Below, one piece after another: positions 18,839-60,752 of a stretch of DNA of 64,000 nt. The stretch is from Ochromonas danica. Taxonomy: Eukaryota > Sar > Chrysophyceae > Chromulinales > Chromulinaceae. The notes beneath the pieces were generated by a model. It was not told where the DNA came from and made no database searches. It saw nothing but the letters and a program-made list of their open reading frames with translations. Numbering within the stretch: the first letter of the stretch is position 1; each line of letters opens with the position of its first letter. The position numbers were made by a program, and so were the translations under genes. Location: NCBI GenBank assembly GCA_015146655.1, contig VKHL01000018.1, positions 154,001 to 218,000 on the forward strand. Reading direction: 5' to 3'.

Positions 18839-19125
18839 TTTCTGCTATACGTTGAGTTGAAAAGGCGACCATTTCCTCTGCATTAGGAACCATGACAAAG
18901 AGAGAGAGAGAGAGTAGAGAGAGGCTGAGTAGTCTGGGAACCTTATGAAAATCGTGTTTCCAAAGTGCATATTTATGACGCCTTCTTTTCCCACCATCAG
19001 TCACAATTGAATTGATTCTACAGAGTACCCCCTCTGTTGACTTCAACTAAAAAGCAACTCAGACTACTTCACTTTTCTCTTTCAATTCTTCACTTCTTCT
19101 CTCAACTCTTTTCACTTTTATTAAA

Positions 19126-20487
19126 ATGCGTGAATGTATTTCTATCCATATTGGTCAGGCTGGTGTTCAAACTGGTAATGCCTGTTGGGAACTCTATTGC
19201 TTGGAGCATGGCATCCAGCCTGATGGTCAGATGCCTTCCGACAAGACCGTGGGCGGTGGTGATGACTCCTTCAACACCTTCTTCTCCGAGACTGGCGCTG
19301 GCAAGCACGTTCCTCGCACTGTCTTGATAGATCTTGAGCCCAGTGTGTGTGACGAAGTGCGCACTGGCACCTACCGCCAGCTGTACCACCCCGAGCAGAT
19401 CATCTCCGGCAAGGAGGACGCTGCCAACAACTATGCTCGCGGTCACTACACCATCGGCAAGGAGATCGTGGACCTTGTCTTGGACAGAATCCGCAAGTTG
19501 GCTGACAACTGCACTGGTCTCCAGGGCTTCTTGATCTTCCACGCCACTGGCGGTGGAACTGGTTCTGGTTTCGGCTCTCTGTTGCTGGAGCGTCTGTCTG
19601 TGGACTACGGCCGCAAGTCCAAGCTGTCCTTCACTGTGACTCCTGCTCCTCAGGTGGCTACTGCTGTGGTTGAGCCTTACAACCATGTGCTCTCCTGCCA
19701 CGCTCTCCTCGAGCACACTGACTGCACCTTCTGTCTCGATAACGAGGCTTTGTACGATGTGTGCCGTCGCAACTTGGATATCGAGCGTCCTACCTACACC
19801 AACTTGAATCGTCTGATCGCCCAGGTGGTGTCTTCCCTGACCGCTTCTTTGCGCTTCGATGGTGCTTTGAACGTGGATTTGTCTGAGTTCCAGACTAACT
19901 TGGTGCCTTATCCTCGTATCCACTTCATGCTTACCTCCTACGCTCCCATCATCTCTGCGGAGAAGGCTTACCATGAGCAGCTGTCCGTGCATGAGATCAC
20001 CAACTCCGTGTTCGAGCCCTCCAACATGCTCACGAAGTGCGATCCTCGCCACGGCAAGTACATGGCTTGCTGCATGATGTACCGCGGTGATGTGGTCCCC
20101 AAGGATGTGAACTCCGCTGTGGCCACCATCAAGACCAAGCGCACTGTGCAGTTCGTGGACTGGTGCCCCACTGGCTTCAAGTGCGGCATCAACTACCAGC
20201 CTCCTACTGTGGTTCCTGGAGGTGACTTGGCTCGTGTGCAGCGCGCTGTGTGCATGGTTTCCAACACCACTGCCATCGCTGAGGCTCTGTCCCGTATCGA
20301 CCACAAGTTCGATCTCATGTACGCTAAGCGTGCCTTCGTCCACTGGTATGTGGGTGAGGGTATGGAGGAAGGCGAGTTCTCCGAGGCTCGTGAGGACTTG
20401 GCTGCTCTTGAGAAGGACTACGAGGAGGTGGGTGCTGAGACCGCCGAGGGGGAGGGCGAGGAGGAGGACTTCGGCGAGGAGTACTAG
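19126..20487 (+). CDS. TUBA: Alpha-tubulin
   Basis: A single intronless exon encodes 453 residues, the usual length. It starts with the autoregulatory MREC motif and carries K40 in the lumenal loop ([12 protein letters not shown]), the GTP-binding signature [12 protein letters not shown], the alpha-specific catalytic Glu region ([17 protein letters not shown]), and an acidic tail ending EEDFGEEY, whose terminal Tyr allows detyrosination. It polymerises with beta-tubulin in microtubules, spindle and flagella. Codon use is strongly biased to C-ending and GCT/TCC/GGC codons, unlike its neighbours, as expected of a highly expressed gene. A few unusual residues appear in a conserved stretch ([21 protein letters not shown], where most have [17 protein letters not shown]). 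Confidence 0.98.
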
Positions 20488-20904: not shown

Positions 20905-23900
20905 CTAGGGATGTGCAGGGTCGAGGCGCAGGACTGCTTCTTCCAGTCGACTGACTCTCTGCCAGGCTTGCTGCAGCTGTTGGTGGCGACAGGCCAGGCC
21001 CTCCACCCAGTAGATGCTCAGCGCGGCGCAGAAGGCGACCGTCTCCAACGCCATCTGCTCCTCGCGGCCAAAGGGACGAGGACGCACAGCGTAGAGCAAG
21101 CCGATGATTGTACCGCTCGAGCCGCGCAAAGGCACGGCCAGGTAGGCACAGGAGGAGGAGGAGGAGGGGGAGAGGCCGTCGATCTGCGGGTGTACCGCGT
21201 GGCTACCCTCTACTGCGGTGGCGGTGTAGAGGTCATCGAGCAGCAGCGCGCGTCGACTCTGCAGCACCTCCTCCACCAGACTGCGCCGCCTACCTCCTCC
21301 TGCACCTCCTCGCAGCTGAGGTAGTGCGCCGAAGGTAGCGGGGGGAATGCCTGCGTGGAGGATGGCATCGCCTGTGTAGAGCACGTGTAGCACGGAGGGC
21401 GAAGAAGAGGCAGCGGGTAGCAGTGCCCAGGGACTGTCCCTCAAGACGATCGCCTGGCCGTCAGAGCGCAACAGATGGCGAACCACTTGCAGCGCCTTGA
21501 TCGACACCTCCGAGACTGCCTGCAGGGGAGGGAGGGTAGCTAGGTGGCGCACATGATGTAGACCCTCCTCCTCCTGCTGCATCGAGGAGGAAGTGGTGGT
21601 GGAGGAGGTAGAGGGAGGGTCGAGTAGCAGGCAGCACTCCCTCAACACTACCTTGTGCACCTTGCGCAGTCGCTCCTCCTTCTCCTTCGAGGTAGTAGCA
21701 CTAGTACTAGCAGTAGTAGTAGTAGCAGTAGGAGGTGAGGGAGGCAGCCTAGCAGCGCTGACCACAGCCTGTAGCACATAGCTACCCTCCTCCCACACGA
21801 GGCGACGAGCAGTGGAGATGTGCTGGTCCTCCTCCTCCTCCTCCTCCTCCTCCTGCGCCTCCCCCTCCTCCTCTCGCTCACCTTGATCTCTCTCAGCCAG
21901 GTAGCGGCGCTTGCGGGTCAAGAGTCTCAGCACTCCCACTACCTCGCTACTACCACTACCACTACCGGTACTACCGAACAAGGGGGTGCAAAGGAGGTGC
22001 AGCTGTCCCTGTTCCGGGTGTGCTAGCGGGGAGTCGATGGCGAGGAGGTCTGTGGGCGAGATCTCCACCGCCGAGGAGAAGATCTGCTCGCAGGGTTGGC
22101 CGCTGCGGAGGCATCGATCTACTAATGAGTCTATCCCGCTACCTGTTCCCCCTCCTCCTCCTCCTGCTACCTCTAGATGGCTGGGTAGGATGAGAGAGAG
22201 GTCGCGCGGAGGGCTCTGAGGAAGGAACAGATGACCTCGCAGTACAGCATCGCTCTGGCTAGAAGGCGTTGAGGCCATCATCCAGCAGCTGAGATGCAGC
22301 AGAGCGGGTAGTCGAGGGGTGGAGGAGGAGGAGGAGGAGGAGGCCTTGGCTACCTCCTCAAAGGCTGTCTGCATGGCCAGTAGCACCGCCTGGATCCATT
22401 CCCGCTGCCTCTCTCCTCCTGCTGCACTGCTCGCCGCACTCCGCAAGGGGTGCGCCAGGGCGGAACGGAACTGTTCAACGGCTCTGCGGGTAGCCGCCGC
22501 GCGGCTCCTCCTCCTGCGGCTCTGCGTGACTACCTGCTGGGCCAGTGCTTGCAAGTGACTGCGGAAGGAAGCTTTCTGCTCACGGTACTTGCTGCGCGAG
22601 TGATCCAACTGTCTGTGTAGATCGCCTAGCATGCCCTCCTGCTCCTCCTGCAGGGTAGCGAAGAGGTGGTCGGCCTCCTTGCGAGCTAGGCTATCGCGAT
22701 GCAGACCATTCTCCTGCGTGATGCAGAGGGTAATCCAAGCTGTGACCGTCTCGAGCAGGTCGAAGGCGAAGGAGAGGTGTAGGCGTCTCTCCATCTCCTC
22801 CTGCTCCTCCACCAGCAAGTCCTCCTCCTCCTCCTGCGATGCTCTGGGTAGCTGCATAGGGAGGAGGTAGAAGACGTCTAGACTACATCCACTAGGCAGT
22901 GTGATGGTGGTTCGACTGATGATCTCCTTGCCCACTAGAGTCTCCGGGTGGGTAGGCTGGAGGTGTAGCAGCAGAGGGTAGAGGGCCACGCCGTCCTCCC
23001 CGCCGCGCTGCCTCACTACCTCTTCCACACTCTGCAGGGGATGGCGCGAGACTGCGGCAAAGAAGTCAAGCAACTGACGGTAGAGTGCTGCCTGTTGCTC
23101 ATGGAAGGAGCGGTGGAGGAGGAGGAGGCGCACCTCCTCGCGTAGTGCGAGTGTCTGCAGTAGGCGATCGTCGGCGATGCACTGCAACATCTGCTGCCAG
23201 CGACTCTGACAGACCACGCGAGCGACCATCGAGAGGATGTCATCGAGGACCACGGCGAGGTTGGGCTGGAAGACCACGGAGGAGGAGGAGGAGGAGGTGG
23301 TGGAGGAGGAGGAGGGCGGAGGGTTCGAGGCGATGGCTACAAGCGCTCCCAAGCTTTCTCCCAAGTGAATGTCAACGATAGGCAAGGTCGTCACTCGCCA
23401 CATAGTCGCGGTGGTCGAAGAAGAAGAGAGAGGTAGATCCACGATGTTCTTCGACTTCTTCTCGATAGTTCCGTTGGCCAAGGAGATGCACAGCGAGCGT
23501 GTTGTTTCCGGTAGATTGTCCCAGACTAGCGCTACCTCGCCCTCAGCAGAGACACCTCCTCCTCCTCCTCCTCCACTGGTAGCAGAGGCAGCACTGAGTG
23601 GCTCGCTGTGCACCCACAAGAGCTCTCTGGCTTGCAGTCTACCTCCTCCTCCTCCTCTGCCTCCCTCGTCCACACCTCTTGCTACCTCTTGTCCGGTGTG
23701 CACGGTGTGGTTGACGAGTGCGAGGCTCAGACTGTGCAGGCTGCTACCCGGCAGGTTGGAATAGAAGGACACGGCGCGAGTGGTAAGCTGGTGGAGGTAT
23801 TCCAACAGTCCCGGGCAGTTCTCTACGGCCCAATGCTTCCCTTGCACTCCATCTCGATAGCACCGCCACATCGAGGAGGAGGAGGAGGAGGAGTCAGCGG

Positions 23901-26900
23901 TAGGTGAAGAAGAGGTAACAGCTTGCAGCGCATCGGTGGAGAGAGCGAGGCAATGCTCCTGGTGCTCTTGGTAGAGCAAGAGGTTCGCACACTGCTCTTC
24001 TACCTCCTCGCGCTGTCTTCGGCACTGTGCTAGCTCTTGCTCTACCTCGGAGGTGCGATCGCGAAGATCCAGCCACTTACCTTGCTGGGTAGTCTGTGTC
24101 ACGAGGAGGTAAAGGAGATGGCAGAGCAACGGCAGGAAGGGTTTGATGAACACTTTCACATCATCTCGGCTAAAGGAAAGTCTTGCCAAGGGAGTGGTAG
24201 CAGTAGCAGTAGGAGGAGCAGGAGGAGCAGGTGGAGGAGGAGGAGGCAGCCAGAGCACTTCATGATAGACATAGCTTTCCCGTCGCTCGTCTTCTTCGCG
24301 TTCTTGCTGCTCGTTCTTCTCTGAAAGAAGAGACAAGGCGATGTGTACACGGCAGTGGAGATGTCTAGCCAGCACCTCCTCCACCTCCCTCACCATTAGC
24401 AGTGCGTTGACTGGGTAGGAAGCACCAGCACCAGGACTAGCACCAGGACCAGGTAGTAGAGGAAGATAGAACTTCTGCGCTACTTTGACTAGTTGATCGA
24501 TGAGGCCGCGATAGGTTGACGTGGTGTCGACATAATGCTCCACCTCCTGCCCCAGCTTGTCCAGATTGGTCTGGCAATGGGCAAGGCGTTGTCTCGTGGT
24601 AGTCGCGGAGGTGGAAAGCTCTTCCAAGGCTCGCACTGCCAAGAGAAGCGGAGCGAGCAGGTCAGCGAAATGGACGAGCAGTGCTTCTAGACGCTTCGTC
24701 GTTAAGTTAAGAGGGAGTGCCACTCGCCACACTGCCAGCAGCTGCTGACACTGACCGCCACTGTGACTGCCACTGTGACCGCTACCACTGCCACTGTGAC
24801 GCTTCAGTCGCACTGGGAACAAATAGATCGCACCTCTCCCTTCCTCGTTAGCAGCAGAAGGGTGTCGATGGATGAGGTAGAGGTCTTCCAGGTCAGTCTG
24901 TGAGGAGAACAAGTCCATCAGAGTGGCGTGCACTCGATTGCCATAGAGAAGCACACTGTTCAGCTCCACACCACTACCACTGCTACCACTACCACTGCGA
25001 CTGCTACTGTCACTGCCTTTCCAAACCATTTCCACTAGACGATATCCCTCTCCCTGCTCTGCTGCTGCTGTTGTTGTTGTGAATCGGTCGTTGTGGTCCA
25101 TCCATATGATAAGACCACAATCTGTTTCCATCACTTGCGATGGGTTGGAGGAAGACAAAGCGGTGGCGAGAATGCGTGGCAGAACTCTCTGTGCGAGTTG
25201 TTCCCACAGACCTACCACTCCTCCTCCTCCTCCACCACCACCTCCTCCTTGAAGATCTACCTCCTGCTGTACCAAGCGGTCAAAGGAGTGCGCATCTTCA
25301 AGAATCTGCTTAGCACCGACTACTTGATCATGATCACGCTGCCACCTGGCGGCTTCTTCAGAGAGGCGGACTACCTTGCGATGTAGCACGTGCACTTTCA
25401 TTCCGTTGAAGGCTAACAGAAGATTCGTGCGGCTGTTAAGGTGTTCGTAGTAGACCTTGCGGACAGTCACCATCCGATACCGACTCAGCAGACGAGCATG
25501 TTCGTCAAGTAGCACACCTCCTCGAAAGCGGTGCATGATCATCGAGAGGAAGGCTAGCAGCGCGTGGACTAAGACGAGGTAGGAGGAGGAGGAGGAGGGT
25601 AGCTCTGAGGAAGCCTCTGTGGCTGAGAGATAGAGCAGCCAGTATCGATCAGAGACAGACAGAGAAGAGGAAGAAGGAGCAGAAAGATAGCCCAGGGGGA
25701 TGCAGACTAACACTTCCCCAGCCCCAGTGGAGGAGGAGGAGGAGGAGGAGGAGGAGGAGGAGGACAAGAAGCTGTGCACGTGAATACTCTCCAAATAGCT
25801 CTTCGCTGATTGAAGTTTGAACTGCGCCACAACCTCGTGTACCTCTTGGTTGACGAGGAGATGAATAGGTGGCATGTCTCCCTTCGCCTTCGATCGTGCT
25901 TGTTGAGATAAGATCTGTTGAAGATGGACTAGCAGGGAGGGAGACAATGCTAGACTCTTCTCATTCCTAATCCACGACACTTTGCCTGCGGAGGAGGAGG
26001 AGGAGGAGGAGGAGTAATTCCCGGTGGCATATTGAAACAATGTCTTGTTGAGCAGTCGAGACAAAACATCTGCAAAGACTTCTTCTTCCTGTCGACAGCT
26101 CACCATCCTGCCAACCCATCGCGTTAGTTCAACGAACAAGTCCACAGACCAGCGAGTCTTCTGTCTCTCTTCAGCTAGTTGGTCAGCATGTAACAGTGAT
26201 TGGTGTGCTAGGCGCTGCTCGCAATCCTCCTCGAGATGACTCACTTCCTCTGCTTTCTCTGCCTTGAGGTCTTCCACATAGTCATGCAGAGCTTCCTTCT
26301 CCTCGCTCAGATGGCCGATGGTCGAGAGGTTGGAGGAGAGCATCTGGTGGTAGACAGCTGCCCATTGCAGTCCCTGAGCGATTAACTTAACTTGCAGCAC
26401 GAGATGGCTGGGCGATGGTAGCCGTCGGCCGAATTGCACTATTAAATACAAAGCAGTTGGCCTCGCTGCTCCTCTCGAGGGAATAGGAACCTTCAACACT
26501 CCTGCCATCACTTCCGAGCTGTCATCATCACCATCACTTTCATTTGATGGCTTGTGAAGAGGGTAGAGTTGGTATCGCCTGCGAGGAATGTCATCCTCAT
26601 GGCCGCCCATCTCATGCATGGAGACAAATCTCATTCGAGCTAGTTTAAGAATGACTTTACTACTTGACAGACTCTTCTCATCATAAATAGCAGAGGGTGA
26701 TGATGATGATGATGACGATGACGCAACGACTTCCACCAAATCCTTGGCATCATCACAAGCAAAGCGAGCGAAAACTTCTTCCTCACAGCTTTCAACTGTA
26801 GATTCATAATAGACTGCTTGCACAGTGGCGAGGAGATAGTCTTTGACAAGGTCAGAGCACCGTGAGAGGACAATGAGAGCGCCTTCTCTCTGCCCTGTTG

Positions 26901-29900
26901 TCGCAGAGATAATCTGATTGACTTGGTGGTGCAGGTTGGCAGCTAGCAGCGGATGCAACAGATCCAACTCATGCAAGAGATTCTTTCGCTCTTGTTCCAC
27001 TTCCGCCAGCTGTTGACTAGCAAGCTCACAGGCTTGCACTTCTTCCTGGAGACGATGAATCTTGTCGAGGTTAGCAGAATAGACTTGATGGTTATTGCGG
27101 TAGTGCAGGCAATAGGCGAGGAGGTGCTGGAAGTAGTGCACCATTTCCTTCTCCGCAGCACTCCAGCAGCTCTTGTACTTCATCAACAACAACAAAGCTT
27201 GTCTCTGCTGTGATGGAATGGAAGCCTCAGCCTTGTCTTTCTCCTCCTCCTCCACCACCACTAGAGGGGTAGTAGACAAGGTGAACGGGATGCACAGTAT
27301 ACTGTAATTAGCGGCATTCCAGCGATCTCCATCTCCATCATAGCGGCCATCCATTACTTCTGATCTTTCTTGCATGACAGATAGAAATCTTCGCACAGAG
27401 AAAACAGGTGTAGCAGCAGCAGCAGGAGCAGTAGCAGGAGGAGGAGGAGGATCATAATTGCGAGAATAGCTCTTCGAGTAGGTCAAGGCTAACGTCTCCA
27501 TATCATTGCTTTCGAAGTGAAGGTAATTGGCTTGTCGATCGGGAGGGAAAATGGCAATGTAACCTAGTTCAACAGCATGATAACAGTGAGGAGGAGGAGG
27601 AGGAGGAGGAGACAAGGTAAAGAAAGGTCTATACCTGTATGGTCTCTCAACGAGGGCAAACTCTTGAAGCTGTTGAGATCATTACATTCATCCATGATGA
27701 ACTCCTCGCTAATAGGGTGATTGCTAGGCAGGTAAACAGTACACAGACATCCTTTCGTGAGTTTGCCCAGCTGGTCTTGAAAGGTTTCCACCAAATGCGA
27801 CAGATGAGTCCTTTGGTGGTACCCAGACAGACAGACAGACAGACAGACAACAGCATGTATGAGATGATACAACATGTCACAGTTAATCTATTAAGAGGGA
27901 GGAAATACCTTTTCGAAGCAGCTAACGACAACAAATCTTGACTGAAGCGAAGGCAATCCTCGTATTGCATCTTCTCATTCATTCCTTCTACGACTTGTTC
28001 TTGAATGTTATTATATGCACTTTGTAAGACAGTGATGGTCTCAGAGGCTTCTTGCAGACTAGCAAAAGCTTCTGACAGATGATTCAACTTGGACACCAGG
28101 TAAGCGATGAACAAGGCCAAGATGGACAGCAACTCCTCGTCGAAATCTGTTATGAGAAGGTCTTGGACAGACAGCGCGTTGTAGTCGCCATGGTCTCCTT
28201 TGCTCTCCACCTCAGCGGTAATAGAGGTAGCAGAGGTCTCTCGAAGAACTCTTTCCACCACAATGTGACCAATCAAACGCTTTCGGAAGACAGAATGGAT
28301 TGGAATAATGACACTGTTTCCATTACGAATGACTTCCTTATTCGTGTATCGCGGTGGAGCAAGAGCAGGAGGAGGAGCATCTTGTTGTCCTTTCTCGTAT
28401 AAGAACACTGAGGCGTGATGGTGGACAGAGTAAAGGTAAGGGAAGTACAAGAGATCGTGAATGACTTTCTCTGCGGCTAGACAGATGTCACCCAGGGATT
28501 GATACTGTTTGCTCAATAAGAGTCGACCAATGTGGTAGATCTCTCGGTACTTGGCGATCACACGATCTTGTCCACTCTTTGATTTCATAGCGACAACATT
28601 AGCAGCAGAGGTAGCAGAGGTAGCAGTACTGCTAGTCATCATAGGCGGGGGAAGAGTTGCAGGACTGCTGAAGACCTTGTTGGAGTTGACTGGCTCCACT
28701 CCACTAGACAACATGGACGGCGGAGGACCGTAACTAGCTGTGCCGTGCTGTTCCATCTGATGCAATGCATTGGCATTGGCGAGCAGTTTGCTTGTGAGAT
28801 TAGCTGCTGCTTCGAATAGATCTCTTTCCTCATCGCTAAATCCTTCTCCACTGCCACCACTACCTTCAGATCCAATGGGCTTGGCACTCTTTTCAATTTC
28901 CTTGAGAATGACGAAGCATGTTACCCCATCTGCACCTCCTCCTCCTACCTGCTCATGCCCTCGTTTGGGTACAATGAGAACAGCTACATTATGTTGTGAG
29001 GGGACGGGATGACGATTAGCACCGCCTATTTGCTCTTTTCCCCTCAGAGAAATGTTGTAAATCCCCGCAGCGCCCAGTGGCTCACTAAAGCGTTGATTGT
29101 TGCCAAGAAGAGTTTTCTTCTGTCTTGAATAATGCGCCGTGTAGACAATCGAAATGTCATTCTTCTGGGCTTCAAGGATGGATGTATACAATCCTGCGAT
29201 ACTCTGGATGACGTCAGGGAGAGTGTTCTTCACAATAGCAAACAGCATGGCATCTCGAGACTCTACAATCTCTCGCAGCCAGAGCAACGCAGTGGCGCTG
29301 CTGTTACCACTTCCACTACTAGATAGCATGCAACGACTATCGATGGTATAGTTGTAAATAAGACTGATGAGATGGTTCTTCATGACTTCCATTTGATGAT
29401 AGTTGTTTTGTACAGCAAGATTGTCAGCTTCCAGCAATTGGATTCTCTCCGCACTGTATTGATGCTGACCGTCTAGCTTCTTGCTAAGTGTGGCTATCTC
29501 ACTCTCTAACGCATCCACAGCACTGTCCTTGCTTGCTAAGAGATTGGTTAGTTGATTCTTCTCTTTCTCCGCGGTCTTCATTGTCTCTGATTGATGCAAC
29601 TCTAAACTAGCTAGTCGTTCCAGCAGATCTTTCTTCTCTGCTGTTGTTATTAATTGCAAGTTCTCTAGCTTATGCAACTCATCACTTAATTGGTGATTGA
29701 TTTGAACGATTTGCCGATCGCTTTGCTGATCAATAACCTTCAAGATTAACAAACTCATCAATAGCGTAAACACTTCTTTGTATAGTGACCAGAAGTCAGA
29801 GTGACTCTTTAGTGTGGACTCGTCCATCATGGAGACGTCAGGAAAGACGATCAATGCGCCAAAGACAGTCTTGCTGCTGTGGTTGTCAGGTTTACACAAT

Positions 29901-32900
29901 CTGATCACATATTGCTGCTCGCTGCTTCCATCTCCAGCCGTTTGATTCAAAGGTGGGTAGTAGTCAGTGAAGTAATTGGGGAGATCGTATAGTTGGTTAA
30001 GAGATAGTGATCGAGGTGGAGATGACAAAGACGAATCCAACGAAGAACGATCAAGTTGATCATATCCTGTCGGCCAGATGATATCATAATTAATACTCAA
30101 AGCTCCACTATCCAAGTCAATCCTTGTCAGACCATTTTCATTCATCTGTGACAAATAGCTTCCATTCACCGCCAACAGAATGGAATGTGCTTGAAGAAGT
30201 GCCGTGAGATCCTGCCAGATCACATCTGCTACTTCTGCCAAGGAGGTACAATTCAAAATGCTGACAATGAGAAGAATCATCTTGTACAAGTTGCTATTCT
30301 CCACTTGGCTTTGCTTTGCTTCGAGATTACGTCTTTGAAGATTCTGCTGGAAGGAAGTCAAGGCAGAGTCGATTGTCAACTTTTCCTCTTTGGCTTGTTG
30401 TAAGATCTCATTCTTCTCATTGAGCAGACTGCGTATATTACAAGAATAAAGCAAGAGATACCAAAGGATACGATAAGCTGACAGGTGTGTCTTAGTCAAT
30501 TGATTTAATTGATCACTGGCATTAACACCGCGATAGATGATCTCTAATTCCCCCACAATACCGTTACCACCCACACCTCTCTCACTACTACTACTACCGT
30601 CCAGATGATTGATATCATGACTGGAATTGTTGATTGTTACAGAAGGATTGTAGAGCTTCACTTTCAATATTCTGTTGTCATCCTCGCTGAGAACAGAGTT
30701 GATCAACTCCATGGATGAAGTTTTGGCGATCATTTGAGCCAACCTTCGTCCAATCATTTCCACCGATGACTCCTCGTCTGTGGTGATGAAGTACTTTCTG
30801 TCATCCTCTTCTTGCAGTAAATCTGCGCTAAGAGTGCAAGAGATCCCACTAGCATGACTAGTTTTTCGGATCCACTGTAGCATCAAGGAAATGATATTGT
30901 CCACAATGACGCCGTCTTCTTCTTCCAGGTCTTTATGCTTCGAGTTTGACTTTCTACCCAGTGAGGTTGCTGTTGTTTGAAGAGACAGGAGACAGGGAAT
31001 ACACTGACTGAGCATGCCTTGGATCTGCTGGTCTTCCTCAGCCTCGATATCGACCACTCCCAGTGCCAAGCAGCTGTACACCATGCTAGCTATTTTGCAG
31101 ATATCGACAAATCGCTTCTTCTCTTCATGGATAGCGTATGATCGATGCGAGCAAAGGATACGAATGTATCCAATCGTCTTCTGTGGAAGGTAATGATTGC
31201 TATTACCCGCAGATGATACTTGCTCCTCTGGCCGCAGCAGGAAGTGTTGCATAGTGGAGGAAATAGAATTGAACTTGTGATGATAGTGGATAACTTCACC
31301 AACCATCTCATAGAGATCTTCATTGTTGGTTAGCTGTCTACTTGTGGTAACATTGGCTAGCAGCAAGTCTTCTTGGTAAGCAGCCTGCGAAGTGTAGCAA
31401 ATCACTTTGTCTCCAGGGAAAGACCGTCTTAGCAACTGTGTGAAGTGCTGCATATACAATTCTTCCGCTCTTTTCGTGTCATGGAAATGATGGTAGGAAG
31501 AAGATGATAAGCTGTCCATTGCTTCATTCGCTAGACGACCAAGTCCTTCATTAGACTGCTCGTGTTGGTCAGCAGTGTTCATATCAAACTTCAACCGAAA
31601 AGTCAATAGTTGCATCAACACTATTTGCTTCTCATGTAAATGTTTTAGACGTCTTTCGTATCTTTTAGCAACCACCACTCTATTCCAACCTCGAAACAAT
31701 CTGCCTTTCTTCATTTTAGAGACCATAGAAGCCACTTTATCGGTAATCTGATCGTTTTCGGTTTCCAACGTCTCCATAGTTTGTATAGAAGTAACAGATC
31801 TTCGAAGTAATTGTCCAACTTGATGAACCTGGACCAGCAGATTCGCTAGACCATCCAAGAATAGCGCATTAGTCAATTGAAGAGCATAATGTTGGGTGAA
31901 AGTTTGCTCGAAGCAAAGGTCAACATAAGATATCTCACTGCCAGACGTGGTAGACGTAGGCGAAGAAGAAGAAGGTCCAACTGGAACATAATCAACCAAC
32001 ACCATGACCATCATGCCCAACTTAGTGAAGATGGGAATTAAGACTGCAGAAGTGAACTGAGGAAACAAATTGGACACAAAATGGTAAAGAGACAATCTGG
32101 AAGCTTGTAATGAGGTCAGAGAGAATTCGTCTCCAATCCGCACAATATTGCCAGCACCAGAAGCAGCAGTTGCAGGTTTGAACTGTCCTGGTGTGTAAAG
32201 CACAATCTTATTGCTTAATAGATCTTGTAACCACAACATCGTGGCACCACCGCCACCACCACCACCATTGCCTCCTGCAGTCGAGGTTGAGATCTGGAAA
32301 ATCGTCCTATTCTTGATATACGTGAAATGCATGCCACCATCAGTAACCATGCCTTCTTCGCTGTCATTGACTAGATCAAAGGCTCTCGCAAGATCTTCCG
32401 TTAGCAACAATCTACACTTCTTGACATGCAATAAGCCACAAAGGTCTCTTCGCTGCAGTTCATCAAACAGATCCAAGATACTCTCAACAGTATAAATCTG
32501 CTGGCTGTCAAGCAGGCCACTAATGACTTTCCCGCTGTAAGAGTGTAGCCTTTGAGTTGCTTGTGAAAGCTCAGGTTGAAGACTGTATTGGATTTCTTGG
32601 AAGTTTGCTTCAAAGGCATTCTTCGCAATGGATGCCAGATCTTGTAGATGGAGAGTGGCGATGGTCTCATTATCCTCCACGGGGTTATCATCTGTGCCAA
32701 TGTTAGTGGCAGCTGGCACCTCTGCAAGAATGGCAACAAAAATACTACTGGCTATTGCATTGGAAGCAGTGTTGGACATATTCTGAGGATTCAACTCGAA
32801 GCAGATCCTCAGCAGATGAAGTTTGTTGAATTCTGGGCGATGCGGGTAAGGATCATCCTCTACCGCCGCGAAGAGAAAGTCAAACTCTTCTGACTGTCTG

Positions 32901-35208
32901 TCTATTGTGACTTGTTCAAGGACATCCAAGGCGTTGGGAAGAACTAAACGGCTTTGACTCGCTGTCATTTGTCCAGCAAAGTGACGATGTAGTCTCTTCT
33001 GAAGATAGACAGCACTCAGACTGTCATAGAAGATGTTGTTGTAGTTGCTGCTCTCATCATAGACGTAGTGCTTCTTGGTAACCACGACCCAGACTTTGTC
33101 GAACAGCGGACAACTCTTCAAGACAGCAGTGGTGATGTAATTGAAGCGACAGCTTACCGCTTCCTCACTACCTCTACCTCTACCTCTGCCATCATTCCCA
33201 CTGTCTGATTGCAGCAGCTGAGAAAGTGCTAGAAGAGATTGCTTCGAGAGCAATTGCACGTCCTTCACTAAGAGATGCTCTTGTTGGCGCTTGGCGCGGT
33301 GCTGGCTGTAGAGGCGGTCGAGACTGTTTTGAATGATATTTCCCAGTCTCTCAATGGAGTACTTCTGAAGGAGCAGCTGGAAGGACGAGAAATACTCCGT
33401 CACTCGATTCAAATTGCTTTCCCTCACTTCTGGCAGTAGCAGAGAGGATGACAGCATGACATCGGAGGCTGACAGAGAGGATGAAGATGAAGATGCTGAC
33501 GTGGCGGACGATTGCATTGCCATGGAAGTGACTGCAGCCATCAGCAATCCTCCCAACTGCTCCCTTCCCTCTGGATAGCGTATCACATAGACAATAATCT
33601 GACTTATCTCACGCTTCGTCGATTCTTCACTAACACCACCACCACCAGCAGCAGTAGAGGAGGAAGAGGAAGAGGGCAAATTGGTCCCAGGGTTGGCTTG
33701 CATGTTGTAGAGAAGGTCATCATAGATCTCATCCTCTTTCGAGATGAACAGCAGGTGACAATGATTGGAAGAAGTGAGAAGATCTTGATATGGTCGATAT
33801 TGCCGCAACACATTCGCGTTCATCTCTCGCTTATGATCCATGCGAAGCAGTCGATTCTGACTACCTTGTCCTCCTCCACCTCCACCTCCTCCTGCTGCTA
33901 CCGCGGGAATCATCTCCCAGTATTGTAAGGTTTGAATGTCAATCTTCTTCAGAAGGTCACCAGCCGTGCGGATGTGCTTCCCCACAGCCTCATGGAAGGC
34001 ATCAAGAGGCCGAGCTTGCAGAAGGTCCTCCATCTCTCTGACCAGAGCAGTCAGGTCGTAATAACAATCAAAATGGCGCTTCAAGCTGAACTCATAGCTT
34101 TCCAGCGAATCCTTGTTGAAGTTCATCACTGACTGCATGGCATGGAATGCATTCAAGGCTGCTTGTTGGTAGTGTAGATGGCTATCTTCAGGTTGCTTGG
34201 GCTGCTCTAGCGGAAGAGGAGGAGGAGACAGTGGCCCTGCTGCTGCTGTTGTTGTTGCTGGCATAGACTGTGTCAGCAGCAGTTGTTGGGATGACGACTG
34301 CTGCACTTCACCCGTAGACTTGGATCGATATATAGACACGTGTTCCTGCTGTGGCTGCTGCAGTTCCAAGAGGCTATAATAGGATGATGATGATTCTTCT
34401 TCTCTGTCTCGGCGTCGACGCGGGCGATGATGAGTTGGACTTTCTTCTCGCTCTGCATAAGAGCTGCGCGAGACATGATACAGTGAAGGAGAAGACGGAT
34501 CCTGGGGAGCTTTCTTACTAACTCTGGATGGGCTTTTCGTGGCGAGAGGTTGAGAAAGCAAACTGTAATGTCCTCCTCGTAAAAGGGTGGGCGAAGTTGA
34601 TCGTGAGCGAGGTTTGTTGGCGGGGTCGACCACTGGCAGGCTGTCATACGGCGTGCTAATCAATAGACGCTTGCGTGGGGTGCGAAGGGCAGGGTTATCG
34701 TCTTCCATCTCTCTGCCAGCTTTCTTCTCTCGTTCCAAGGCGTGCTGCAGCAAAACTCTTCGCGTGGGTCGACCACTGGACCGACTGCCTTTCCTGGACA
34801 GACCCTCTTCTGCTGGAGGAGGCATCGATGAGCCAGGAGTGATCTCTTGCTGCTTCGCAGGAGATTCTGCTGTGCCTAGAATTCTTCTCAATCTCTTCCT
34901 GTGGCCAGACAAGATGATAGCGTGGCAACGGAATGGTCAGTGTGAGGGAGAGGGAGAGGGAGGAGGAGGGAGAGAGGGGAGGAGACTACTTGGTGTCTTG
35001 CAGGTTCTGTGGACTGATGACCGAGACCTGCTCTGGCGTGGGCTCAGCTTTCTTCCGCAAGGCTCGATCTTGAGTGACATCCTGGCGCAGCGCCTGCTCC
35101 TTTGCCAAGAGCTTGTTCAGGCGAGTTCTAGAGAAAGACAGGGCTTTGAGATGCACTGCAACGAAGAATGGGAAGTAGAAGATGTCCTTACCTAGCATCT
35201 TCACTCAT
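20905..35208 (-). CDS. Giant multi-GAF coiled-coil protein, 4,659 residues
   Basis: Five exons, 35192-35208 (17 bases), 34990-35127, 27909-34898, 27635-27810 and 20905-27563, join in frame. The start is MSEDARTRLNKLLAKEQ. The last module (21,345-20,930, residues about 4,510-4,655) is a clear GAF domain: LQSRRALLLDDLY, CAYLAVPLRGSSGTIIGLLY, FGREEQMALETVAFC. Similar but degenerate modules recur, each with an L-x-V/I-P strand, a G-x-L strand, an F-x-x-E helix and a coiled coil after it (for example near 32,000, 31,200, 30,100, 29,000, 28,300, 27,700, 25,700, 24,800, 22,000). One module is split by the small exon (CLCTVYLP ... HTGYIAIFPPDRQ), which shows the two long frames are one gene. KKGRLFRGWNRVVVAKRYER (near residue 1,115) is an IQ- or Sfi1-like basic helix. 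Poly-Ser, poly-Pro and poly-Gly loops are common. Ligand and role are unknown; a cytoskeletal or flagellar scaffold is inference. Confidence 0.85.
27811..27908 (-). repeat. Giant-gene intron with TGTC tandem run
   Basis: This 98-base intron contains a (CAGA)n run on the plus strand (27,826-27,848), read as TGTC repeats on the gene strand. It acts as the pyrimidine-rich tract ahead of the acceptor ACCACCAAAG. Length change of the run would alter the distance to the 3' splice site but not the coding frame. Confidence 0.8.
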
Positions 35209-54201: not shown

Positions 54202-57200
54202 TTAAAGGATATCTTGCAGACGCAGAGACTGCGCAGCTGTTCGTTCAAACTCTCGAGTTGGCTTCTCAGTCGATCCCAAAGTACGGCTCGCAACAGGAGT
54301 GTAAATATAGTCTCCCGTCTTGCTCTCAGCCATCATGCCTCGATCGTTTTTGGCCGGAGAGCCTTTCCTTTTGCTCAAGCCGAGGTACTTGCTTGGACTA
54401 GCCAAGGGACTTTGAGCTGAACGAGGATCGAGTCGTCGATGCTGCTGTTCTTGGAAATGGATGACCTGAGACATCGCATCTCGCAGGGATTTGACCGCCA
54501 CATTCGCCTTAAGGACTTCTCTCAATGGTCTCGGAGGTTTGGCAGGCCGTTCAGCGAGTACTAGAGGATTCGCAGAGCCACATTTCTCGTGAAGTGCTTG
54601 TGTAATCCGCAGATGCCTAGGCAGGGCCATGCCGGAGACTGAAGCTTGGAGCACTTGTCCTGGAACTTGCTCTGGGAAAAGCAATACTCTGCCAGCTTGA
54701 CTGTGGCCGAGTTGCTGATGTAGAAGGTATCGATTATATTCCGCTTGCTGTGCTTCATCCACTTTCTCCATGCTGCTGTAGATTTGCTTGTAAATAGTCT
54801 CGTTGTCAAGCAATCGCAGATTTGCAGGGATATCAGGGTCCACTCTGTTAATAGCTTGAATATATTGCGCAAAGGTAATATCGTGCAGTGGCTTGTATTT
54901 CCACGTATGAAATGCTATTCTGAGGTACAGCTGGAAACGACTGTTCCATTTATGAACCAATAAAGCCAACTTGTGTCGTCGCATGACTTGGAGCTGATAA
55001 GCCGCATTGTTGATCTGGAGGTACTGCTTCCATCCCAGAAATGCTCTTTGAGAGAGAAGAATCTTCCTGAAGAGATTGGCCAGGAATAGTTTTCTCCACC
55101 CTTGCCAGCGGGTTGTTACAATCCATATGCGATTGAGTGGTCCTGTGTGACGAATCTTCACCAACCAAGTGCGGAAGTAGCGCAACAATTGTCTGCGATA
55201 GACTACCATGCACACTGTAGCCACTCTTCTTCGAACTTGTTGATGTCGAAGATAGCACTCCAGCCACCAGTTATACAAACGGCTCACCACTCGACGTTGA
55301 TGAAGAAAAGCTAAGTATTTCGCATTGACAAATCTACGATAGTTTTCTCGAAGCGGTCTCCAGATAATAAGCAGCAAGTGTCTCCGTTGAAAGCCTCGTA
55401 GACGGCTCAAGAACGCCAGCTTCTTAAACTTGTAGACATGAATATAGTGCTTCCAGATACCAAAAATGCGCTTGGCCAATAAGTCAAGATGATATTGCCT
55501 GCGGTTCGCTGCCACTCTATATAACAGAGAAGAGAGTTAGAGCAAGGAATTGGGAATGAGCACAAAGGCTTTCAAACAAACCTGTGCCAATGAACGAAAC
55601 AGCGATAAGGTTGCCAAAGGCTATCATCCCGGTCATAGTTAAGTAGTCGATTATAGCGACGATACTTATGCTGCAAATGTTCATGGTAGATGCGAACATG
55701 TTTGGCGTCGCGAAACTGACTTTGTCGAGGAGGTTGAGAAGGATGATGCCGAGGAGGTTTAAATGCACGATCTCTTTCCCAATCCAAATCCAAAACGTCT
55801 AAGGCACTGCGTTGTAGAGGAGGAGGACTGGGCGTAGAACTAGAGGAATAAAATCGATGCGCTCGCGCTGGCGATGGACTGGCTGAATGGCTGCGTCTTA
55901 TAGATTCAGACGCATTAAAAGTGTTGAGATAGTTTGCTCTATTTGATGCATTAAACAGACGGTCCTGCGGTTCTCTCCGTTTCTGTTGCGATCTATTGTT
56001 ACCTCCTAACAGAGATGCATTCTTAGACTTACGGAAAGGCGAATGGTATTGTTGTTCGGCCCGAAGGGCAGCAAGATGTTGCTCTTCTCGAACTTCCTCA
56101 GCATTGCGGTTAAGAATAGGAGCCTTGTGGTGATAATACAGGACATACATAAATCGCTTCCATTTTCTGAAATAGCGTAAGAATGTCTTGCGATAATAGC
56201 GGCGATTCGAAAACCCTATCCGTTGCTTGTAATAGCGAGTATATTTATGTCTTATAAACCATTTCTTGAGGTAGATCAGAAGGAGGCGATTGTATCGGAA
56301 AGTAGTCGCCAACTGCTCAGACTTAGCCTGACGAAGATAGTTGTTGACATTATACCTCCAGTTAATCCAAACTGACTTGAGGTTGCGGAAGTTGATCAAT
56401 TCAAAGCGCAATGTAAGGGTATACCACGCCTTGAAGAGACGCTTCTTCTCCCAGTGCAAATGGCGACTTTGGGTGGTAAGATATTGTTTGTAGAGGCGGT
56501 GGTTATCAATTGTTGCCAACCACGCCAACAAAATGCGCTTTCTTTCTTGCTTCAAGTGATTAGTTGCCACCAAATTATATTGAAGCTGCAGCCTCACTTT
56601 CTTGGTAATGTAGATCTTCCAATACACCCAATAAGTGTACTTGACGCGTTTGTTGATTTTCTTCCTCATAATTTGGAAGATACGATGATATTTACTCCAT
56701 TGACGAAAAGCTATTCTCCACAGCTTAAACGACGGGACCAGATAGAATCGCCGACAAAGTCGAACCATTTTCTTCCGCATGATTGTCATCAACCTCCATT
56801 GGACAAGACCTTCCTTCTTCTTGGCGAGGATATAATTTCTGTCTACAAGAGCTACAATGTCAGTTGCACGCTTTCTGCGCAAAGCGACACCTTGCCAACG
56901 ATAGAGAAGCATCAAAAGGCGCTGTCTGAACCTTTTCGCAACAATGCGATTCGTTCTGTCATATTTTCGCATATATACAGAACGCTTCATCCGCCTCAAA
57001 AACAGCTTGCATTGTTCCTTAAGTCTGGCGATACAAATACAGCGCTTATGAAGCTGCTGATAATATCGCACTCTTCTCTTCCACTGACGAATTGAAGTAC
57101 GTGATATCTCAACATAGCGTTCCTTACGATGTTCAGACAAGATCTTTCTTCGTCTCCTGCGAAGCTTTAATCGATGCCTTAGACGAGCAAAGAAACATTC

Positions 57201-60200
57201 CACTTGTGTTGTTACATAATGTTTGTACACATTGTAGTGAATTCGTCGACTGTGGCGCCTTTTCCGCAAACGTAAGAACGCTGACCAAAAGATTCGTTGT
57301 ATCTTTCTGCGGTTATGATCCGCCAACACTTGACGCATCGCCAAAGCTCGACGTTTTCGCGACTGAATGCCCCGTTTCCATCCTTGGTAGTATATGTAAA
57401 GGTGGCTATTCTGAAAATGATCATGGTACCACAGACCTCGCAGTCGCTGCAGAGTCATTGCGCTTGGCTGATTATAATAGGCTCCTGTGGTAAATGTGGG
57501 AAGAGCTCCACGTACTTGTCCCGTAGCAGCTTTGAGCAGCCTCCGCTTTTTGTACCCAACCTTATTCACAGCTCGCTTCCAGCGAAGAAAGAGAAGTTTG
57601 AAGGCAGCGCGCACGTATCGCAGATTCATTTTGCGCAGTTGCCCTTCACGCCAACGTTTGGTGGAAGCTAATAGGCGCGTTCGAGTCAACCAGAGAGAGA
57701 AGGGAATGCGAAGGAAACTACTCACCCTTCCCCTCAAGACCATAGCTTTGGCCAGATTCTTGGTGTATGGATTGTTAGCTTCGCCTCGTTCAAACTCTTC
57801 CACTTCTGTTGAGCGAGGGGCAAAGAGTTCTCCTCTTCTATCCGCCTGAACCAGTTGGTTGAAGTAGTCAAATCGGTAATCACGAAGCTTGTGCAAGTAT
57901 CGTAATTTGGTCATACGATTGTGGAAAAGTCTTGGCAGTCTATTGATTACTCGCTTCTGAGAAATCAACCGAAACCAATGGCGAAAATAATCTCCACGAC
58001 GCATCCACAATCTACGTAGTCTCATCTTTCGGCTTTTTGATAGGCGCAAACTGTAATGATACAGGAAAAGAAAGAACGGTCGTAGGAAATGTTTGGTTGC
58101 TTGAATGAGGTCCAATGCTTGATTGGTCCGGCGTGCAGCACGTTCACCAGTAGTAATGCGGAAGAAATGGAACACTTTGAAGTTGCCCACAAAACGAGCA
58201 TAAACAGCTCTGCGATATCGGTCTCTGGCTCCTTTCAGTTTATTGACTGCATCGATCAATTTCATTCGATAAGGAACCAGAGCTTTCCTCAACTGTATCT
58301 TGTGACTTCTCGTCGAAGATAGCCAGCGCACAAACAAAATTCTTGGATAATGATTCCAGTAATGATGTCTTCCGGCTAATAAAACCTGCCGCTGCCATCT
58401 CTTTCTCCGAAAGTATTGGAAGAGTTTGTGGAAGTTATAACTGAGTCGCTTCTCAACTGCGTGGCCAAGAAACTGATGGAATGTATTCTTATGAAAAGCT
58501 CGAAACATGTTGAAGGCTCTTTTCTTCAAGGAATATCTGCGAAACGCAACAAAGCGAATTGCCTGCTTGCGATACCACTGTAAATACTTGTATACTTTGG
58601 GTAGTTTAATAAAACGAATAACATATCCTCTCCACAACTTCTTCATACAGTTAACGATCGTGGCAAGTGAGGTATGAAGACACCACTGAGTCCAAGCCAG
58701 TCGAATACTATCTTTTGCATGAATTCGATCATGGATAGCACTCAACCGTAAAGCACGTGCGCGATCCTTTACATACAGAAACCAAGATCTCAACACAGCA
58801 TGTTTTAGCCGTCTGTCATACTTATTGTGCACAAGAGTGCTGAACTGCGCGATTTCAGCCTCTTGCTGGCGCATTAATTCCAGTCTATTAGCGCGTAACA
58901 GAGCTGATCTTTCATATTGACGACGCCAAGCATAGAAGGCTAAAGCGGTTGACTTGTGCACTGCCTTTTTGCAAATACGATGTGCCAGCTGATTATAAAT
59001 CCGAAATCGCGCAGTGACAATCAGCCACGACCCAAATACTTCGATGAGTCGCGATCGGTAAACACGCGTCTGAATCGTGAGGACACATCTCCTGAAATAG
59101 CGTTGCTGTACAAGAAACTGTCTCCATCGCTTCCAAGCATAAACGCTCCGTTTTCGCAATATGTATGCTCTGCCCAACTCACGTGTCTTGAACAAAGACG
59201 ATTGCTGTTGGTTCGAAGCAGGGAGCAGTGAGTATGCCCCGCTCAGCTTCTTGGCAAAGTAACTGACTTGATTCGGACTGTCTAGTGCTCGCTGAATAAG
59301 AAACGTCATCCACTTTACCATGGCCCTATATGTAGCACGTTGTCTGTGATATTGCTTGGCCAAGAAGACTCTCGCCCGCTGCGTTGGTGATCCTTGTTGT
59401 AGAATGACCATCATTTGCTTCCACTGCTGAGCCTTTTGAGTTAACTGGGGGCTGTAGAGCGACTGCAAGGAAGAAAGTAGATGATGATAAAAAGGATGAT
59501 TTCGATACAAGCGGCTTCTCTCTTCTGCAAGCCAATATAATCCTATTTGCTGATAGAATAGCAGCTTTGTTCGAGCTAATAGAGACTCCCTTATAGCATT
59601 TGACTCAGCGAAAGCTAACGAGTCCGATACCGCAATTCGACTATTCTGTAACAGATGGAAAGCTCTGGCTAATCGCACTGTAACATAATGGCAGTGGCCG
59701 AGACGCCATTGACATCTTTGGACTCTTATTCGATGTATTCTGCGAATAAACTTCTCCAATAATCTCCATCGTCTGCGAGGGTATATGAAGTTGCGAATCA
59801 TTCTAGAGGCGTGATAGGTCCGCTTCCATTGATCGAAGAGGGTAATTAGCTCTCTTCTTTGGTGGAGAAACCTTACGGCATTTGCTTCACCTCGTATCTC
59901 TCGTCGATACCGTATCTCACTAGCCCATATTCTCAGCAATCGCCTGCAGTAATTAACCTTGAAATAGTCATCCAATCGCTTGTTTCGAAGGTAGATCGCC
60001 TTCCACGAGCGAAAGCTGTGGAGCAAGGAGAACGCATCCAGCAGGGCTATGGCATGAACGAAGAGAGGGAAGTGCTTCTCTGGCAAGTGCAACTGCTCTG
60101 CTGCATAGCGGCGAATTCGTGAGATGAAGAAATTTGAATTAATTTCTTGTCTGCCTCGGCTGCGCTTGCGGTTGTATTCGTGTATGGCATGGAAAGGGAA

Positions 60201-60410
60201 GGTGTAGACGGTCTGACCTTCGTCTTTTCTCAGTGTCAGTGCAATCCATTTGAACAGAGCGAAGACGGTCAGTCCGTTAGCCAGCGGATGGACAAGACTC
60301 AGCTGCGATTTAATGTGATAGTCTCTCCATGCGAGGAATACCCTTTTCTTCAGCTTGTAGCAAGCATAGGTTCTCGCCCAGGGAATATCTCGATAGTCAA
60401 CTATGGACAT
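54202..60410 (-). CDS. Sfi1-like giant centrin-binding repeat protein, 2,047 residues
   Basis: Exons are 55582-60410 and 54202-55516; the intron is 55517-55581 (phase 2, joining HWHR to VAANRRQYH). The protein is very basic and rich in Arg, Tyr, Trp, Phe and Leu. Nearly its whole length is made of spaced helical units ending in a W: for example LFDQWKRTYHA, VYAWKRWRQFL, LAFYAWRRQYERSALLRANR, VLRSWFLYVKDRARALRLSA, LAWTQWCLHTS, WRKLFLANLFRKILLSQRAF then LGWKQYLQ. A hydrophobic pair, then Trp and a basic run every 20-35 residues is the pattern of Sfi1, which binds one centrin per repeat and forms filaments at centrosomes, spindle poles and basal bodies. The last 130 residues lack repeats and are Lys/Ser-rich. 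A role in basal body or striated-fibre structure is inferred. Confidence 0.85.
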
Positions 60411-60752
60411 GGCCAGCCAGGCACCTGGCAGGTCAGGTCACCCTCTGGCTTCTCTTTCTTCTTCTCTTCCCTCCCAATGATCGCCTAGGAGGACGAGAAG
60501 GACTCCGTAAGGAGCGGTAGTGGCTGAGTGGTCAGGCAGAAAACTGAAAATGAAAGATCTTTCTCAATCTTTCACAAAAGTGGTCGTTGTCGAGGAGCTT
60601 TGCCGGAACGTCTTCATCGCTGAAAACGCGATTGTTGAAAAACAGTTTCTTGGACTGTAACGGTCAACAGTTCCCACCAATGTTAACAAGATAGTCTAGA
60701 CTGACAGCTGCTGTTATCTGAGTAGACTATGACTAGAGTACAATTTTCCTTC
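60411..60752. other. Intergenic region upstream of Sfi1-like gene
   Basis: A 342-base gap between the start of the Sfi1-like gene and the stop of the TrpC-like gene. It contains a tRNA A-box-like word (GTGGCTGAGTGGTCAGGC, 60,518-60,535) and a perfect 8-bp hairpin (TGAAAGAT, loop, ATCTTTCA, 60,551-60,574), but no B box or matching acceptor stem, so I do not call an RNA gene. Confidence 0.5.

Follow-up and report, generated by a model that had tools for sequence, protein, structure and literature searches.

Most known GAF domains are regulatory modules that occur singly or in small numbers on enzymes. In the tandem-GAF phosphodiesterases (PDE2, PDE5, PDE6 and PDE10) and the CyaB-type cyclase these domains are joined by helices, and the PDE-type GAFs which bind cyclic nucleotides are marked by the NKFDE motif, N-K...F-x3-D-E. 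The giant protein described here, encoded on the minus strand of a 64,000-nucleotide stretch of an Ochromonas danica contig (the window), likewise appears to have GAF-type modules joined by helices, and PDE GAFs are among the solved chains closest to its C-terminal module, m17. It differs from the phosphodiesterases and the cyclase in having many more modules, in that no catalytic domain has been found in it, and in that the NKFDE-type motif is mostly absent. A second comparison is with phytochromes and the multi-GAF bacterial sensor kinases. Low-confidence models of two internal modules, m4 and m5, are similar to the GAF/PHY chains of phytochromes; however no kinase was found in the giant protein, and the m4–m5 pair gives an rmsd of 17–20 Å, the arrangement not being common to both. 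With the Sfi1-type centrin-binding proteins it shares an invariant FxxW helix, albeit as a single conserved FxxW site with N after the W and not as a tandem array. No comparable giant multi-GAF protein appears in the portions of the literature searched, which is consistent with the original prediction of an undescribed family. The building modules are known, but the whole architecture seems, as far as those portions extend, to be undescribed.

Two minus-strand frames, 20905-27678 and 27647-34936, are stop-free over 2,257 and 2,429 codons respectively; on the opposite strand of the same stretch the longest run without a stop is 143 codons. Joining five minus-strand exons of 17, 138, 6,990, 176 and 6,659 nt yields 4,659 codons followed by one terminal stop, and the four introns (64, 91, 98 and 71 nt) are each bounded by GT...AG, so that the previously claimed gene model, with four GT-AG introns and a 4,659-residue product, was reproduced exactly. 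Exon 3 (27909-34898) encodes residues 52-2381 and modules m1 to m8. Exon 4 (27635-27810) supplies the middle of a split module, m9, and exon 5 (20905-27563) runs to the stop codon, encoding the remainder of m9 and m10 to m17. The two upstream exons fared less well. Exon 1 (35192-35208), with the proposed start codon, and exon 2 (34990-35127) fit in their GT-AG borders and phase, yet the relatives lend them no support: when the 51 residues of exons 1 and 2 were compared with the N-termini of the relatives P0011 and P0012, 663 and 311 of 2,000 shuffles, respectively, scored as well or better. GC content is 46% in exon 3 and reaches 56% in exon 5. In 400-codon blocks of 20905-34936, GC3 lies between 0.41 and 0.58 up to codon 3600 and between 0.67 and 0.73 thereafter, inside one gene.

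Relatives of the giant protein are uncharacterised predicted proteins from environmental DNA, several of them fragments and none with a functional name, so the family would be easily missed. A search with exon 3 matched two, P0003 (1,829 aa) and P0004 (3,989 aa), the former being 35% identical to the giant protein across residues 296-2382. A search with the C-terminus of P0004 returned P0004 itself and nine further proteins, among them two near copies of it, P0005 and P0006 (93–94%), and a pair with 57% identity, P0011 and P0012; exon 5 has relatives in P0004 to P0013. A search for collinear homologues had been proposed, and four were found: P0004, P0006, P0011 and P0012, of 3,985–4,234 aa, are each one predicted protein, collinear with both halves of the giant protein at 18–21% identity. 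A homologue search with alignment A4 gave nothing at E ≤ 0.001 among 7,999 candidates scored, probably, at a guess, owing to low-complexity words filling the candidate list, and scans of viral contigs and prokaryote genomes yielded no relative.

The joins were compared at the protein level, P0005 being left out of the alignment. At the exon 3/4 join P0004, P0006, P0011 and P0012 continue through, P0003 ends, and P0007 and P0008 begin nearby, the pattern expected if an intron occupies a site shared by descent. At the exon 4/5 join all nine aligned relatives which reach it (P0004 and P0006 to P0013) continue through. Since relatives pass through these joins as single proteins, the claim of a single gene is solid for exons 3 to 5. 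In the genome (a 31.2 Mb assembly of 337 contigs) exon 3 matches itself alone; for exon 5 there are, apart from its own match, two neighbouring pieces on contig C3 and one low-complexity sequence. The gene is single-copy. As had been claimed, it encodes one giant protein, and collinear relatives of about 4,000–4,200 aa exist. The pieces on contig C3 (L003, G000, about 416148-416482) form one 330-nt copy of window positions 26936-27247 with 89% nucleotide identity, the rest of the gene being absent; part of exon 5 was recently duplicated there.

The only certain GAF of the protein is m17 (21016-21498, minus strand). It matches PF01590 with an E-value of 9.8e-9 (36.3 bits, cut-off 22.4) and PF13185 with 30.3 bits (cut-off 28.6), and in this stretch identity to P0004 reaches 32%, as against about 21% in the other matching stretches. 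A profile of the second half retrieved the PDE GAFs 5w10 (7.9e-7) and 2k31 (0.007) from the PDB, and the m17 consensus retrieved PDE6 (1e-4), 5w10, another GAF-family protein and PDE10A. In the relatives m17 carries DPRY in six of nine and F-x3-D in all nine, whereas the giant protein has HPQ where relatives have DPR, and F-x3-E for F-x3-D. Of the NKFDE motif it retains the F alone; the nine relatives keep F-x3-D but not the N. Judging from these residues, nucleotide binding has likely been lost in this lineage.

How many of the internal modules are GAFs is a matter of accumulated lines of support, each weak taken alone. The 17 modules were delimited by eye with GAFs expected beforehand, and the array m1 to m16 with its heptad helices occupies 21700-33901 (minus strand; residues 385-4395, limits likewise by eye). 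No internal module scored above the Pfam GAF cut-off in the window exons, relatives and module consensuses scanned, and none of nine modules of P0003 and P0007, nor the whole of P0011, returned a GAF from Pfam. Module m7 (28739-29401, minus; residues 1885-2105) is a probable GAF whose family consensus, one of 14 internal consensuses scanned (m1 and m2 left out), matches positions 9-133 of the 133 in PF01590 at 13.3 bits, against a cut-off of 22.4. The E-value of 0.12 is for the whole library of 24,736 models, which corresponds to about 5e-6 for PF01590 alone, although unrelated families reach similar scores with other consensuses (CD59 0.12, Herpes_UL49_2 0.028 and, for the m10 consensus, ACT_5 0.075). 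Against PDB sequences the m7 consensus found no GAF.

The hhalign comparisons and the hairpin test all used the same by-eye boundaries. In a first hhalign run none of 136 module pairs exceeded 20% probability; at P < 0.1, 21 of 136 pairs were found, as against 3 of 136 for column-shuffled and 13 of 272 for reversed controls (rank-sum p 0.0047). HMM-to-sequence repeat detection did no better than reversed sequence (18 versus 15 at E < 0.1; 0 versus 3 at E < 0.01). Nine of the 16 internal modules (m2, m3, m5, m8, m9, m10, m11, m12 and m14) aligned best to one and the same m17 hairpin, compared with one of 16 for each of the reversed and shuffled controls, this hairpin having been picked post hoc from earlier hhalign alignments and the scores of m10, m11 and m14 failing to beat both controls. 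Counting these nine with m4 and m7, at least one line of support exists for 11 of the 16 internal modules, or 12 of 17 with m17, and none for m1, m6, m13, m15 and m16. The module said to be split over exons 3 to 5, m9 (27055-27931, minus; residues 2375-2610), is upheld as to its joins, through which the relatives continue, and its GAF-like nature leans on its alignment to the core hairpin of m17.

Structure models add a further, limited line. Two models with mean pLDDT of 45 and 36 were obtained, m4 and m5 being of low and m14 of very low confidence; alignments A2 and A3 conflicted at their ends with the E-INS-i alignment and were left unfolded. Among the Foldseek matches listed for model 2, 38 of 50 are GAF-containing, as judged in part by title, with PDE2A and PDE5A first and a cyanobacterial cyclase GAF pair included. 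Model 1 has PAS rows at the top of its structure matches, and is unreliable over its first 300 residues because alignment A5 mostly disagrees there with the E-INS-i alignment. The models are poor; unrelated folds (LasR, Rag GTPase and a radial-spoke chain) tie in Z with GAF-like matches, and a fold missing from the VIA lists excludes nothing. From these models m4 (31019-31531, minus; residues 1175-1345) is called GAF-like, as is m5 (30449-31021, minus; residues 1345-1535), for which a profile alignment agrees, and m14 (23200-23967, minus; residues 3640-3895) is called PAS/GAF-like.

A simple heptad count gave 532 residues in the giant protein, whereas 30 local shuffles averaged 303 and never exceeded 496, and the excess is similar in P0004 (740; shuffle maximum 451) and P0012 (561; shuffle maximum 416). 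Six of the 13 heptad segments fall largely in the stretches between modules and others overlap the modules, a pattern short of strict alternation of by-eye modules and helices. The forecast of up to about a dozen GAF modules alternating with coiled coils thus has moderate support as to number, 12 of 17 having at least one line but one alone passing Pfam, and falls short as to strict alternation. The FxxW helix lies at 31664-31708 (minus; residues 1116-1130), and each of the five sequences counted has the same F1120 and W1123, the near copy P0006 having been dropped. It is a possible centrin or calmodulin site, and that it might bind either protein is a guess.

Together these observations support, rather than prove, a serial array of roughly 12–17 GAF-type modules and heptad helices that ends, at the C-terminus, in a genuine GAF of PDE-like type. 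No catalytic Pfam family was detected in the window exons or in the seven relatives scanned, and a scaffold is the best reading of a giant protein with serial GAFs and coiled coils in which no catalytic domain was detected. The reading we favour, to which we accord somewhat less than an even chance, is of an elongated, probably dimeric GAF/coiled-coil scaffold whose head is a PDE-like GAF that has lost most of its nucleotide motif in this protein. By analogy with the tandem-GAF phosphodiesterases and cyclases, the helices would pair two chains, and such pairing would make the array a scaffold that is long and probably dimeric. The task of most modules would be to hold the dimer together and to offer surfaces to binding partners, not to sense. 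The C-terminal GAF would be the functional head; in the relatives it may still bind a ligand, and in the giant protein it would mainly bind proteins. Through its invariant FxxW helix the scaffold may bind centrin or calmodulin and so be anchored to the cytoskeleton or to the flagellar apparatus. We infer, rather than observe, the rod shape, the dimerisation, the docking of centrin and the place of the protein in the flagellum.

Other readings differ in what they ask of the modules. The array may instead be an allosteric sensor relay: small ligands would bind to several modules, with cyclic nucleotides as the ligand of the C-terminal one, and the resulting change would pass along the coiled coils to bound partners. 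This is a possible though rather unlikely account, to which the cyclic-nucleotide PDE GAFs among the solved chains nearest m17, the DPRY (6/9) and F-x3-D (9/9) of the relatives' m17, and the cyclase and PDE matches in the genome all lend weight; however the giant protein itself lacks DPRY and has F-x3-E for F-x3-D, its other modules are too degenerate for Pfam detection, and no output domain was found. That the internal modules adopt another alpha/beta fold (PAS, roadblock/longin or ACT-like), or are unrelated, with a GAF at the C-terminus alone, is judged unlikely. Pfam detects just the last GAF, PAS rows head the matches of model 1, the m10 consensus matches ACT with an E-value of 0.075, and no hhalign pair exceeds 20%, as such an account would have it, but the position test on the hairpin favours GAF, m7 matches PF01590, and the rows for model 2 are GAF-rich.

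The GC shift between exons 3 and 5 and the unsupported exons 1 and 2 could suggest two or more separate genes or transcripts. This is highly improbable, as P0004, P0006, P0011 and P0012 each span both joins as one predicted protein, and P0003, P0007 and P0008 end or begin at one site, as they would with an intron shared by descent; being single proteins over both joins, the relatives led to its rejection. A bolder extension of the scaffold reading, distinctly speculative, is that of an undescribed family of giant GAF polymers, in which a chain of up to 17 GAF modules would act, as a dimer, either as a ruler or as an allosteric cable in the flagellar apparatus or the cytoskeleton of protists. 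Its length is estimated at some 100–200 nm, with a centrin-type site to hold it and a head derived from a cyclic-nucleotide sensor. A conserved eukaryotic protein consisting almost wholly of GAF-type modules and helices would be an example of the fold in use as a building brick, and the full-length relatives make the family testable.

Pfam matches in the genome number 20 for PF01590 (one of them the giant gene), five for PDEase_I, 13 for Guanylate_cyc and two for IFT46, some matches in these counts being exon pieces of one gene. They indicate that the organism has a gene for intraflagellar transport as well as cyclic-nucleotide machinery. PF00233 and PF00211 gave no match in exons 3 and 5, and the genome's matches lie on other contigs. 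On contigs C45, C17, C28, C16, C38, C62, C77 and C73 of the same genome (G000) there are many open frames of about 500–770 codons whose match to the GAF profile lies chiefly in its second half; they may be an expanded family of GAF proteins. Within the window, an alpha-tubulin gene with an intronless reading frame (19051-20487, plus strand) is convergent with the giant gene. Farther along, a tryptophan-rich open frame of 1,621 codons (55575-60437, minus) has no Pfam match; presumably it resembles an Sfi1-type centrin-binding repeat protein, and it contains 16 [FLIVMY]xxW[KRHL] motifs, compared with a mean of 6.4 and a maximum of 13 in 500 shuffles.
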